Source of the DNA: Gemmatimonas sp.
GTDB taxonomy: Bacteria > Gemmatimonadota > Gemmatimonadetes > Gemmatimonadales > Gemmatimonadaceae
Direction of reading: 5' to 3'
DNA: 64,000 nt
Assembly (NCBI GenBank): GCA_023910675.1
Contig: JAAVWC010000012.1
Location: forward strand, 62,001-126,000
In this document: piece by piece, positions 5,105 to 14,400 of the stretch
Position numbering within the stretch: the first letter of the stretch is position 1
How the letters are laid out: each line of letters begins with the position of its first letter
Notes under the pieces: model-generated
Database searches by the model: none
What the model was told of the DNA's origin: nothing
What the model saw: the letters and a program-made list of their open reading frames with translations, nothing else
Program-made: the position numbers and the translations under genes

Positions 5105-5720
5105 TCAAGCGCCGGCGACCACCGGATTTGACACCCGGCTCAGCCCCACCAGTTCCACCTCGACCACGTCTCCGGGCTTGATCGGGCTCACCCCGGCGGG
5201 GGTCCCGGTGGCGACGATATCGCCGGCTTCGAGCGTGAGGTACTGGGAGATGTAGTGCAGCAGAAACGGAATCTTGAAGGCCATGTCGCCCCCCTTGGCG
5301 TGCTGCACCACCTTGCCGTTGAGCCGGGTGATGAGCTCGATGCCGTCGAGATCGGCCGGCGCGGCCACCGGGGTACCAATGGGGCAAAAGGTATCGAGCC
5401 CCTTCGCCCGGGCCCACTGGCCGTCGTTCTTCTGGAGGTCGCGCGCCGTCACGTCGTTGAGCGCCACCACCCCGCCAATCGCGGCCACCGCCTCGGCCTC
5501 GCTCGTCGACTTGCTCAGCCGCTTCCCCATCACGATGGCGATTTCCCCTTCGTACTCGATGTGCGTGGACACCGGGTGCAAGCACGATCGCCTCCCCTTC
5601 CGCGATGATCGACGACGTAGGCTTGAGAAAGAGGAGCGGCTCCTTGGGCACATCGTTGCCCATCTCGCGGGCGTGCTCGAGGTAGTTGCGACCAACGCAG
5701 ACGATCTTGGAGGGCTTCAT
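5105..5720 (-). CDS. Fumarylacetoacetate hydrolase family protein (one frameshift)
   Basis: Small FAH-type hydrolase or isomerase, a metal-dependent family acting on 2-oxo acids such as acylpyruvates and catechol-pathway intermediates; about 205 residues. The N-terminus [20 protein letters not shown] carries the CVGRNY signature and the C-terminal half has [22 protein letters not shown] and [20 protein letters not shown]. The two halves are in different frames. The break lies near 5580, where a doubled base (GCTTGC read for GCTGC on the coding strand) shifts the frame; removing it gives a continuous family-like sequence. This is most likely a sequencing error. Exact substrate unknown. Confidence 0.85.
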
Positions 5721-5794: not shown

Positions 5795-8347
5795 CTACAC
5801 ATCCTTTCGTCGTTGCCGGTAAAAGCGGGACACCTCCCCCCGGATCTCCCCCCATGCCCCCACCACGCGCCGCGCCGGCGGCAGGGCATCGAGGAGGTCG
5901 CGGCCGTACCGCTTGGTCACGACACGCGGATCGCAGAGCACAACCACGCCGGCATCGGTGCCGGTCCGAATGAGTCGACCGAAGCCCTGCTTGAGCCGGA
6001 GCGACGCGTGCGGCAGCATGAACTCACCGAAGCTGTTGCCGCCGCGCGCTTCAATGGCTTCGCACTGCGCCGCCACCATGGGCTCCGATGGCACGCGAAA
6101 CGGCAGCTTGGCAATGAGCAGCGCCCGCAACGCATCGCCCGGTACGTCCACCCCTTCCCAGAAGGTCGCCGTGCCCAGCAGCACCGCGCGTCCACCGTCG
6201 CGAAAGCGCTGTAGCAGAATATCACGCGATTCTTCACCGTGCACGAGCAGCGGCCATCCCGCGCCGTTCCCGGGGCCGCGCAACCACTCCGCCATCTCGC
6301 GCACATCGCGATGACTCGTGAAGAGCGCGAAGATGCCGCCGTCGCTCGCCGTCATGAGATCGCGAAGATGACGCGCGACCGCCGCAAAGTGTTCGCGCGC
6401 ATTCTCGTTGGGCGCCGGTAAATCGGTGGGCACCACAAGCAGCGCTTGATTGGGATAGTCGAACGGCGACGGAAAGACGGCGCTGCGCTTGCTGCGCTTG
6501 GCGTCGTCGATGCCCAGTCGCTGCTCGAGGAAGTCGAAGCCGCCATGCGTCGGTGAGTGTGGCGCTCGTGATGATCGCCGTCTCGACGCGCTCGAACAGA
6601 TCTTCACGTAGCACCGGCGCCAGATCGAGCGGCACACAATGCACCGCGAGATTACGCTCGCCGCCGGTGGGCTTGCCCTGAAACTCCATCCAGCGCACGA
6701 CCGGCTCACCATCGGCGGGGGCCATCAATCCCTTGGCCAACGCGTCGCCGGCGCTCCCCAAGCGGCGCAAGACGGCGCGCACTTCGTTCAGCAACGGCGC
6801 CAATTCTTCGGCACGTTTCTGATCGGACTCGAGACGGTCACGCACGACCTTGAGCCCCGCCGCGAGGGCATCGATTTCGGTGAGGAGCTCCTTGAGCGTT
6901 CCCTCAATACCGTTGCGCCAGAGATCGTGCTGCTGAAATTCCCCGGTCAGCCGCATCACGGGAGTGCCCTGCATTTCCAGTACGGCCGTGAGCAACTCGA
7001 ACAGCAGCTGCACACGGTCGCGCGCCGTCACCGGCACTCGAGAAGAGACGCTCCGCGCACGAGATCGTGACTCGCCACACTCAGCAGATCCTTGCCGCCG
7101 GCAAGGCGCGCCGCGAGCGCCGGCAGCAGGCCCTTGCCGCGCTTCTCGAGGCGGTTGAACATGCGCGCGAGGGCGCGGCGCGTGATCGGAGCTTCCCAGG
7201 TGCGATGCCGCCGGCGTCTTCGAGATGATGCCCTTCGTCCACCACGAGACGCTTGTACGCCGGCAACACGGCCGCATCATCCCAGTTCTGCGACTGACGG
7301 CGCACGGCGAGGTCGGAGAGCAACAGATGATGATTGACCACGACCACGTCGGCGTTCGCCGCTTCCTTGCGCGCCTTGAACAGAAAGCACTTGTCGTAGA
7401 ACTCGCACGTGAGACGGCCGCAGAGATCGGGCTCGGCCGACACCTCATCCCACACGTCGGGACGCGGCGCCGTGGCCAAGTCCGACAGCGAACCATCCTG
7501 CGTGCGCTTGGCCCACTCGGCGAATCTTCTCGACTTCCTCTGTCACGTTGTTCTCGAACAGCGCAGGCTCCGGCCCCCTGCGCCTGTTCCAGGCGATAGA
7601 GGCACAGATAGTTGCGCCATCCCTTGAGCAACGCAAAGCGCACCGGCTGATCGGTGAGCGCGCGCTTGTAGAAAGGGCAAATCCTTTCGCGACGAGCTGC
7701 TCCTGCAACGTGATGGTGTTGGTGCTCACCACGGTGCGTTCGCCATTGGCCGCGGCCCAAGCGCAGCTGCCGGCACCGAGATAGCCGAGCGACTTGCCGA
7801 CGCCCGTCCCGGCTTCGAGCAAGGCAACGCCGCCTTCGTTGAAGGCTGCCGTGACTTCGGCGGCCATGCCGCGCTGGCTCGGACGGTCTTCGTAATTGCG
7901 CGCGCCGTGCACCTGCTTCATGGCCTGCGCAATGAGCCCGTATGGACCAAGCGCCACGTCCACGTCATCGGGATTTACCGGCACGATCGTCTTGCCGGTG
8001 GGAATCTCCGTCACGAAGTAGATGCGCGTGGCGTCATTGTTCACGATCGCGAAGCCCACGCCGTTGCCGTGCAGACCGAACGCCACCTGCATGTCGGCAT
8101 CGCTGGGCGTGAGCTCGCCCGACGGGTGATTGTGCACGAGCAATTCGCCGCGTTCGGCGACGCCGGGCAGCGCGAGCACGCTCTGCACGTCACCGGCGGC
8201 GACTTTGCGTGCGGTGTCCACGTTGCCGTCGGCGTCGACGGTGCACACGAAACACACTTCGTTGCCACCGTGGAGCCGGATCTGTGTGCGAATGGCTGCC
8301 GCCGCCTTCGGCAGCAGGCGTGCTTCGCCAGCCTCGACCAACGTCAC
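5795..8347 (-). CDS. RadC-like JAB domain fused to DinG/XPD-type helicase (several frameshifts)
   Basis: About 850 residues in several frames. Residues 1-140 form a JAB/JAMM domain: the motif [14 protein letters not shown] near residue 97 holds the metal ligands as in RadC. From about residue 165 a superfamily 2 helicase follows: Walker [10 protein letters not shown], a DEGH box in [10 protein letters not shown], and C-terminal motifs [15 protein letters not shown] and GFGRLIRT. DinG/XPD enzymes unwind damaged or structured DNA and usually carry a 4Fe-4S cluster; cysteines in [13 protein letters not shown] fit that. At least four breaks (near 7690, 7672, 7575 and 7523) are single extra bases, mostly in short homopolymers; more lie near 7200, 7050 and 6550. 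Start 18 bp after the upstream gene. Confidence 0.85.
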
Positions 8348-11400: not shown

Positions 11401-14400
11401 TGAGTCGACGGAAGTATTCGATCACGATCCGACGCTCGTCGGGACCAAGACCACGCAGATCGTTCCAGGTGGGCGGCGTGTACTTGCTCCCCGCCTTCCC
11501 GGACTGCGCGCCATCGACGCGCCCGCCCGAGCCGTTCCCCGCCTTGGCTTCGCGCGGCCCCTGATCATCACGTTCATCCTGCTCGAGGAAACGGCCGGCA
11601 TCGAGCAGACGACGATACAGCTGCTGCTGACGCGCGGCGACGTTGGGATCGAGACCGCCCCGTTCGAGCTGCTGCGCCAACTGCTGCGCTTCTTTGGCGA
11701 GGGCATCGGTCCGTCCGGTTTCGTCGGCATCCGACACGTCGTTGAGACTGCGTGCCACTTCACGCTGCTGACGCGCCAACACACGGGCCTGCTGCTGCGC
11801 CTGATCCCCCTTGGCGCCGCCCGGCATCATGTTGAGCCCCTGCATCTGGCTGTTGAGCTGCCCCTGCTGCTGCGCGAGCTGTTTGAGCTGCTCCATCATT
11901 TCCGTAAAGCCCGACGCCGACTGCGCGTTGTTCACCCGCTCGCGGTCGCGCACGAGTGAGCTGAGCGCTTGGTTGAGCGCTTCAGTGGCGTCTTTCATGG
12001 CGTTCTGCGCCTGTTCACTCCCACCGGGCTGCCCCTGCCCTGCCTGCTGCATGGCCTGGGTGGCCTGCTGCACGCGGCGCTGCGCTTCGCCCATCTGCTT
12101 CTGCGAACGCTGCGACAAGAGCGATGACGAGCGCCCGGCCTGCTCCAAGCGCTCGGCCGCCTGCTGCACGCCTTGCTGCAGCGCACTCTGTTCACCTTGC
12201 ATCCCCTGCGCACCTTGCTGCCCCTGCTGCGCCGACTGGCGCATCTTCTTTTCGAGCTCCGCCTGCTGCCGCGCAAGCTGCATGGTCTCGTTGATGGACT
12301 GGTCGAGCTGGTCGGAGAGCTCTCCCTTCCAGGCGTTCACCTGTGCATCACGCGCCTGCGACAGCTGCTGCGCCGCGCGCTCCATGGCATCGGCGGCCTG
12401 CCGTGCTTGCTGCGCGCCCTGCTGGCCTTGCTGACGCTGGCCCTGCTGGCCTTGCTGGCCCTGCTGACCCTGCTGGCCCTGCTGACCCTGCTGGCCCTGC
12501 TGGCCCTGCTGACCCTGCTGGCCCTGCTGCCCTTGCTGGCCCTTGCTGCCCCTGCTGCCCCTGCTGCTGTTGTTGCCGCTGCTGCTCCGCCGCCTTGCTC
12601 ATCGCATCGGCGGCTTCCTTGGCCAACGGCTGTGCTTCGCGTGTCTTCGCGGCGCCAGGCTTGGCCCCCGCCTCCTCGAGCCGCTTGGCCAACGCCTGCA
12701 CTTCGCGCTCGAGATCGCGCGAACGGTCCGCCAGCGAGCGTGGATCCTGATTGGGCGGCGTCGCGCTCCGCTCACCGGGCTTCCCTTCGCCCGGCTTGCC
12801 CTCACCTTGCGGCGACTTGCCGTCGGTCTTGCCGTCCAGGCGGTCGGCCATCTGCTGCTGCGCCTTCGACAGATCCTTGGCATCATCGCGCAACGTCTGC
12901 ATGGCGCCCTCGAGCGCCGCACGCTTCAACATCTCGGCGCTCTTCTCGAGCTGCTCGCGCATCTGCTTCTGCGCTTCCGAGAGCTGCTGCATGGACTGCT
13001 GCGCCTGCGCGCCACTCAACTTGTCGGAATTCTTGTTGAGCGCCTCGAGCTGCTTCTGCATTTCGGGAGTCATCGCATCGCGCAGCATCTTTTGGATGTC
13101 GCGCATGCGTGAGGCCAAGTGTCGTGTCGAGCGCGTTGGCGTTCTTGAGACGCGACTCGAGCTCCTTGGCATTCATAGCGCAGCGAATCGACCTTCGCCG
13201 ACAGCTGCTGCTGATCACGCGCCAACTGCTTCGCCTTTTCCGCCGCGGTAAAAGCTCATCTGCTGCTTGGCCGCATCGCTCTTCGCGCCGTTCGACGCCG
13301 ACTGATCGCCGCCGCCGGCCTTGAGGATCGCGACTACGCGAGGCATCGGTGGTGTTCTGCTGCAGTCGCTTTTCCTGCTGCGCCAACTGCAGCGCGCGCG
13401 AGGCCAGCGAATCGGCGAGCGAGCGTGCCATCGCCCGCTGCTCCGACAACGTCGGCATGCGCAAAATGATCTCGGCGCTCTGCGCCTGCTGCGCCCACGG
13501 CGAGTCGTCCGTGGCAACTGCGGTCACGTGGAGCTTGTCACCGGGTTCGAGCCCACGGCCGTCGAGCGTGACCGTCGCGCCCCCCTGAAACACCGGCGAC
13601 GATGGAGACGCGACCACCATGCGCTCGCGGGCGACGCCGCCGGCACCGGAGGCAGACTCCTTCCAAAGCACGAGATGCACACGCGCCACGCCGTGATCGT
13701 CACCCGCATCCACCAGCACCGCGACTTCACCGGTGGGGCCTATGGCGGTATCGCTCATGGGCGACACGATCTGCACTTCAGGCGACTGGTCGGGAATGAC
13801 CGTAAAGGGCAGCGAGTCGGGGAGCTCGGGCGGCAGCACCGCGCCATCGGCGCGCGGTGTGGCTTCGGCGCGCCACAGCCACGCGCCGTCACGATCGACG
13901 ATGAAAGGTGCCTTCGGCGGGCACCGCATCGCCGGTCGCGGCAGCAGCAGCCACGAGCGGCACATCGGTACGGACCATCGGACACCACCGCGTTGCGCGC
14001 ACCACCGCGCAGCATGACACGCACACGAATGCGCGTTCCGCGCGGCACGCGCAGGGGCGGGACCGGTTCCAGCGTTTCGTTCGCACGCCCCAAATATGCC
14101 GGATACTCCGCGCGCAACGACACATCGCCCAGCCAGCCGCGCTTCTTCGACCACGAGTGCCGCGGATCAGTTCCGCGGAACGCCCGTCGGATACGCGCAA
14201 CGACTGTCGCGGCGCGGACGGGACCGAGCGCGAGCGACACCACGCCATCAGTCAGGGACGGTGAGCAGCGTATCGCTCCAGGCTTCACCTTCCGAACGAC
14301 GCGAGACCGTGACCGCCTGACGGCCGGTGGCCACCACGCGCACCGTCACCGGCATCCCACGCGGAACACGCGTAGTGAGTTTATCGAAAGCGAGCGCCGG

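Follow-up and report, generated by a model that had tools for sequence, protein, structure and literature searches.

A RadC-like JAB domain joined to a DinG/XPD-type helicase in one protein of Gemmatimonadota

Introduction

What does a RadC-like metallohydrolase domain do at the end of a DNA helicase? This question is raised by a single gene in a stretch of 64,000 nucleotides from a Gemmatimonas sp. assembly (GCA_023910675.1, contig JAAVWC010000012.1, positions 62,001 to 126,000), which is referred to as the window in the following. The RadC family is common, and the literature cited here, as far as it was available to us, holds no agreed function for it; in the gene described here, a domain of this family is attached to a motor whose kind is known.

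The original prediction, made from the letters of the window, described a RadC-like JAMM domain followed by a DinG/XPD-type helicase and regarded the two as usually separate. The two parts are indeed conserved together, but their combination already has a name. Fusions of this kind were known before: section 3.8 of a 2025 review (PMC11981726) names a 'RadC-like DinG' subgroup with a protein of Desulfuromonas soudanensis, and RadC fused to DinG/RAD3-like helicases is mentioned in a 2017 paper. The word 'gemmatimonad' has no occurrence in the main text of the review, and the portions of its RadC-like DinG section considered here do not speak of JAB sites that were lost or inactivated. Our study adds the level of conservation of the JAB domain, dead zinc sites in five proteins and the absence of the domain from nine genomes. 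We consider the window protein to be a Gemmatimonadota member of RadC-like DinG, designed as a helicase plus an accessory hydrolase, with a probability of roughly 70%, a figure that excludes the substrate.

Gene structure and reading frame

The features of the locus are listed in Table 1. The JAB domain and the Walker A motif of the helicase share one uninterrupted frame (P0001, 7445-8347, minus strand), and further parts of the helicase lie in separate frames of the window: P0002 carries three of the four iron-sulphur (FeS) cysteines and the DEGH box, P0003 the remaining FeS cysteine and the arch, and P0004 matches Helicase_C_2 (PF13307, Pfam E 2.7e-45). P0001 is matched by the Pfam RadC family PF04002 above the family cut-off (E 9.6e-7). 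For P0002, the match to NF053712 has an E of 6.5e-24 and that to PF06733 reaches 16.4 bits, below the cut-off of 21 bits. All four pieces are matched by the NCBIfam models of YoaA and DinG.

Table 1. Features of the fusion locus and its direct neighbours (positions in the window)
Feature	Position	Strand	Remarks
Upstream neighbour, 426 aa	8366..9646	-	Without Pfam match at 0.001; its end lies 18 bases ahead of the fusion gene
RadC-like JAB–DinG/XPD helicase fusion gene	5795..8347	-	Start codon GTG at 8347; frame open in relatives, broken in the window
RadC-like JAB domain	7991..8320	-	P0001 residues about 10-119; PF04002 at 18-89; fold matches, model residues 9-115
JAMM zinc site	8093..8260	-	E30 8258-8260, H72 8132-8134, H74 8126-8128, S82 8102-8104, D85 8093-8095
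Helicase Walker A, GTGVGKS	7790..7810	-	In frame with the JAB domain
Remainder of helicase motor 1, four FeS cysteines, DEGH box	7081..7700	-	Frame-broken in the window
Helicase motor 2 (Helicase_C_2) and C terminus	5795..6550	-	PF13307; profile positions 591-839
Downstream neighbour, FAA hydrolase family	5105..5719	-	PF01557, E 2.6e-63 for the L015 copy; frame-broken in the window

The claim of a complete helicase in one gene holds for two relatives, L015 and L001, where the gene is open over 852 codons from stop to stop; it does not hold for the raw letters of the window, in which the helicase is split over several frames. The original prediction had also considered that a corrected sequence could place a stop between the two domains, and this is contradicted by the common frame of JAB domain and Walker A motif as well as by the open gene in both relatives.

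All 2553 bases of the window gene could be aligned to L015 with 95.7% DNA identity, 12 single-base insertions and no deletion, and 11 of these insertions fall within 7000-7999. Over 847 codons, 95 synonymous and three non-synonymous differences from L015 were counted (pN/pS 0.011); the comparison with L001 gave 113 and eight, respectively. Because both relatives have an open gene and differ from the window mostly at synonymous sites, the frame breaks look like assembly errors. A pseudogene was rejected on the low pN/pS and the intact relatives. That the fusion arose as an artefact of assembly, or that the gene has decayed in this organism, as the 12 insertions breaking the helicase half could suggest, is extremely improbable in view of the low pN/pS, the clustering of the insertions and the open gene in L015, L001 and dozens of other loci. 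The genome of the window (G000) comprises 4.55 Mb in 52 contigs and is 84.9% complete.

A second cluster of six frame-changing differences from L015 lies outside the fusion gene at 13000-13999; over 12.5 kb, 11 and six frame-changing indels are found in the two clusters and four elsewhere. Both clusters will be due to local assembly trouble, by which several gene calls would be broken.

The JAB domain and its zinc site

A JAMM signature in the N-terminal part had been noticed in the original prediction, and P0001 contains a complete zinc site between E30 and D85. The five residues E, H, H, S and D are invariant in all 35 rows of alignment A1. Among 55 relatives, H, H, S and D are present without exception and E in 53, the other two sequences (L041 and L055) being cut before this residue by contig ends. 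The motif also occurs in 19 of 20 further N termini from Gemmatimonadota and is visible in each of the ten sequences L104-L113. Compared with the motif EXnH(S/T)HX7SXXD, the residues E, H, H, the X7 spacing, S and D are present, and N instead of S/T stands between the histidines; threonine or asparagine at this place is reported for distant JAMM relatives (PMC300881).

Judged by aligned sequences, the JAB part and the second motor domain are conserved to about the same degree: in 34 rows (L056 being left out), mean pairwise identity amounts to 69.5% for the JAB domain, 86.5% for the start of motor 1, 67.7% for motor 2, 66.0% for the FeS region, 63.2% for the arch part and 48.3% for the linker. 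The predicted model of the JAB domain (mean pLDDT 85.6, pTM 0.66) matched RadC (2qlc) first in Foldseek (E 1.3e-5). VIA-align gave Z 9.2 for BubCD (108 residues, rmsd 2.7), 8.9 for Rpn11 (104 residues, rmsd 2.9) and 7.3 for RadC, values that are middling, near ties and little above the level which the tool calls common.

Canonical RadC (2qlc, PF04002) shares the fold and the pattern HNHPSG...PSxxD with the fusion. However, the L015 protein reaches only 21.5 bits against the RadC model NF000642, with an equivalog cut-off of 180, its domain sits on a helicase, and it coexists with a separate gene: in a draw of 31 genomes of relatives, 29 encode canonical RadC (135-152 bits) separately, so the fusion is no substitute for it. 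Among these 31 genomes, the canonical gene was not found in G000 (85% complete) and G313.

Which reaction such a domain would catalyse is a matter of divided opinion, at least in the parts of the literature considered here: nuclease activity or nucleic-acid processing is proposed on one side (PMC5512222; PMC3482391, from 2012) and a metalloprotease-like fold is described on the other (PMC11981726). In the literature that we found, no RadC-type JAB domain is reported to have an enzyme activity. As a nuclease or another nucleic-acid-processing enzyme, the domain would trim the strand exposed by the helicase and be placed like the N-terminal nucleases of ExoDinG and EndoDinG. This role is favoured from domain context in the first two papers, in the portions at hand; other DinG subgroups do carry N-terminal nucleases according to the review section available to us (PMC11981726), and RadC was the only match of the JAB profile to PDB sequences (E 8.3e-7). 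It is countered by the fold comparison, where the 50 Foldseek and 50 VIA-align rows listed consist of RadC and JAMM/MPN-type proteins with the exception of one weak deaminase row, although a fold in common is no proof of function. The site also retains E and S as found in JAMM peptidases, and the asparagine between the histidines has the precedent given above. We regard a nuclease as possible and as the main rival of the protein-hydrolase guess, the two being about as likely as each other.

The helicase half

The four FeS cysteines (C253, C313, C318 and C324) are present in 55 of 55 relatives. The predicted full-length model (mean pLDDT 85.6, pTM 0.86) matched best to DinG with ssDNA (6fwr, which we take to be the E. 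coli protein; E 7.2e-42), followed by S. aureus DinG, CasDinG and XPD. Over the helicase, the best NCBIfam match of the L015 protein is YoaA (NF053712) with 572.2 bits, below the curated cut-off of 680; L122 reaches 577.3 bits and also stays below it. The scores of L015 against DinG (NF008729; 446, curated cut-off 598) and csf4, the CasDinG of type IV CRISPR (119.6 bits, cut-off 400), are below the respective thresholds as well. From its sequence, the helicase can be classed as an iron-sulphur enzyme of the XPD/DinG kind, nearest to YoaA.

The E. coli YoaA is a repair helicase that works with HolC as its partner (PMC8378479, seen in part), and the four FeS cysteines are common to it and the fusion helicase. 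The fusion differs by its additional JAB domain, by the score below the YoaA cut-off and by the lack of HolC, which was detected in none of 61 Gemmatimonadota genomes, G000 included, while the control was positive in E. coli and Caulobacter. This absence agrees with the statement of the review on the RadC-like DinG subgroup. According to the section at hand, members of that subgroup carry the same N-terminal RadC-like domain with E, H, H and D, an FeS domain, an arch and two motor domains, are YoaA-like and occur in genomes without HolC (PMC11981726). One polypeptide (in the relatives), E/H/H/D, four FeS cysteines and the absence of HolC were all found here; in contrast to the D. soudanensis protein, the window protein comes from another phylum. 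ExoDinG, for example S. aureus DinG, is likewise a DinG-type helicase with an N-terminal enzyme domain and gives a strong fold match to our full model, but this domain is an exonuclease there (PMC11981726, in part) and JAB/JAMM here.

A defence system was considered and rejected: the PADLOC matches (typeIV_DinG, DpdF and PDC-S28 models) lie on the helicase part only.

Distribution of the fusion

The JAB motif shares one frame with the DExH box in 55 of the 57 loci L001-L057, the remaining two (L011 and L042) being cut by contig ends. This confirms the union of RadC-like JAMM domain and DinG/XPD-type helicase in one protein, and separate genes in all relatives, the other outcome that the original prediction had named as speaking against it, are contradicted by the same 55 loci. 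PF04002, PF13307 and DEAD were detected together in all 35 intact relatives.

The A1 profile, which was built from these 35 intact members, matched 126 of 150 Gemmatimonadota genomes and left 24 without a match. With respect to the frequency of the fusion, which had been posed as a question, it is widespread: 113 of the 150, the genome of the window included, have a match that reaches into the JAB region at its start (profile position <=20). Three matches start inside the helicase, in G048 (JAB piece on another contig), G083 (contig end) and G130, and one further match is marginal (G149). A draw of 198 genomes from the class contained 160 with matches, which in part were marginal. Of 148 genomes from the phylum to which the Desulfuromonadales genome G150 belongs, 115 match the profile, only 14 of them from profile position <=15, and the others by the helicase part only or marginally. 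A tblastn search against plasmid records also revealed a protein of 823 codons from Fusobacterium vincentii with a weak, collinear JAB-like N terminus.

A mobile element was rejected as carrier of the gene: tblastn of P0001 gave 15 matches in 72,556 plasmid records and three in 50,697 phage records, none covering 80% of the query. Among the ten of the 15 plasmid matches listed and the three phage matches, the JAB part is reached only by the Fusobacterium record. This circular record of 2.1 Mb (L118, NZ_CP084075.1) is filed as a plasmid, and its size suggests a chromosome. Another record, titled Candidatus Kuenenia stuttgartiensis (L012, CALQGY020000083.1), carries the fusion with Gemmatimonadota neighbours and is placed among Gemmatimonadota rows of the tree described below; it is probably a mislabelled bin.

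Loss and inactivation of the JAB domain

Zinc ligands are missing in five proteins: L097, L103 and L147 from Gemmatimonadota, L125 from the Desulfuromonadales phylum and L118 from Fusobacterium, the N-terminal segment of which aligns only weakly to the JAB profile (13.3 bits). L097 and L103 belong to one genus (genomes G109 and G121), L147 to G131 and L125 to G208. The three cases in Gemmatimonadota are all from small genomes of 1.8-2.0 Mb; G033, also 2.0 Mb in size, has an intact site (L131), and G208 with its degenerate site measures 3.6 Mb. The L125 frame (G208:C4:93000-104000) spans 1185 codons from stop to stop.

In nine further Gemmatimonadota genomes (G015, G020, G022, G025, G034, G069, G104, G107 and G126) the JAB domain is absent and the match starts at 118-125. 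One of these JAB-less proteins (L092, from G069) lies in a frame of 1026 codons, where the helicase is preceded by some 200 residues of different sequence instead of the JAB domain. A search of the nine genomes for a separate copy by a JAB-only profile (A3) gave no more than 23.6-27.7 bits, and nothing in G015 and G126. Second A3 matches of equal strength (23.5-28.6 bits) occur in the JAB-positive genomes G038, G018, G128 and G057; matches of this level are taken for canonical RadC. A split of the fusion into two genes in the JAB-less relatives was rejected, as the A3 matches there are no stronger than the RadC level.

A quick tree of 82 rows was calculated from 81 of the 103 collected helicases together with L118; it has 17 open forks and long branches. 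Seven frames that were cut, broken or did not match the Walker A pattern used (L024, L061, L069, L076, L078, L080 and L100) had been omitted from the helicase set. A single clade of all JAB rows was rejected with a p-AU of 5.4e-7 in a test of 52 against 24 rows, which omitted the long rows L118, L101 and L092 and the rows L104, L082 and L001, identical to others. Between JAMM-intact and other rows, at least six changes are needed on the tree. Judged from these placements, the JAB trait has changed repeatedly, which we read as repeated loss of the domain; the tree alone would also be compatible with repeated gain. Loss is suggested for the genera g3, g4 and g7, because their JAB-less helicases are placed among JAB-positive Gemmatimonadota rows and share their neighbours: the helicase adjoins the FAA gene in seven of seven genomes, and the 426-aa gene lies upstream in three of them (L089-L091), as in JAB-positive relatives. 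The linker following the JAB domain was dropped as a mark of loss, because the profile is matched from about position 120 onwards by helicases of other phyla without a JAB domain as well.

The helicase can thus be retained although its JAB domain is disabled or gone. Missing ligands and missing domains imply that the hydrolase is dispensable in those lineages, and its death or loss in several of them favours an accessory, condition-specific function. A domain that remains recognisable in L097, L103, L147, L125 and, weakly, L118 despite its lost zinc ligands could also be mainly a structural or docking module, for protein contact or gating of the helicase, with catalysis secondary or lineage-specific. 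Since a pure docking role would not require the full JAMM site that is kept in most sequences read, we consider this rather doubtful.

Possible function of the fusion protein

For a helicase with an accessory hydrolase, our preferred reading, the following course of events is conceivable. From what is known of the family, the motor would move along ssDNA in 5'-to-3' direction, driven by ATP, at gaps or stalled forks. The JAB domain may use zinc to hydrolyse peptide or isopeptide bonds and may clip a protein stuck on the strand on which the motor pulls. Such a putative hydrolase, coupled to the helicase and directed at strand-bound protein, is a tentative proposal drawn by analogy. Against it weigh the asparagine in place of S/T in the zinc site and the view of PMC5512222 that a groove for a ubiquitin tail is unlikely in RadC-family domains. 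That modified or protein-linked DNA ends would be processed in a coupled manner, as suggested in the original prediction, is a reasonable guess.

The analogy is taken from eukaryotic DNA-protein crosslink repair. There, an adduct-unfolding helicase, FANCJ, which we take to be an XPD-family FeS helicase, is likewise combined with a protease, SPRTN, presumably of another family than JAMM; these are two proteins, in contrast to the one polypeptide discussed here. FANCJ is reported to translocate into the crosslinked protein and to unfold the adduct so that SPRTN can cut (PMC12279946, in part). The more far-reaching idea that RadC-like DinG would be a bacterial crosslink machine in one polypeptide, the FeS motor unfolding the adduct and the JAMM domain cutting it, seems unlikely to us. 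If true, one protein would do the job of FANCJ and SPRTN, and lineages with a dead or missing JAB domain would hand the cutting to another protease. Relatives in which the site is intact or dead, or in which the whole domain is missing, form a set of natural controls, by which the substrate of the JAB domain and the need of the helicase for it become directly testable.

Genomic context

The 426-aa and FAA genes lie beside most of the Gemmatimonadota fusion copies read and were not found beside the copies of the Desulfuromonadales phylum within the stretches fetched. Since these neighbours were not found in both groups, the context gives no hint of the substrate, and neither gene was retained as a conserved partner. 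The neighbours scanned comprise the 426-aa protein, a TPR-like protein and the FAA hydrolase.

The neighbours also bear on the idea that the domain is a JAMM isopeptidase of a ubiquitin-like system which is brought to DNA by the helicase. BubCD, presumably part of a bacterial ubiquitin-like system, tops the VIA-align comparison, yet many other rows lie within about 1 of it. No ubiquitin-like family appeared among the Pfam matches of the ten neighbour proteins scanned, and RadC-family domains are described, in the part of the source at hand, as unlikely to have a groove for the ubiquitin tail (PMC5512222). An isopeptidase of this kind appears very unlikely.

Two minor observations were made around these genes. 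In three loci of the Desulfuromonadales phylum (L120, L121 and L123), a histidine kinase gene (HisKA and HATPase_c) is located close to the fusion. In the window, a 9-base tandem repeat of about 17 copies extends over 12416-12585 and is rich in proline, glycine and alanine in one frame of the minus strand.
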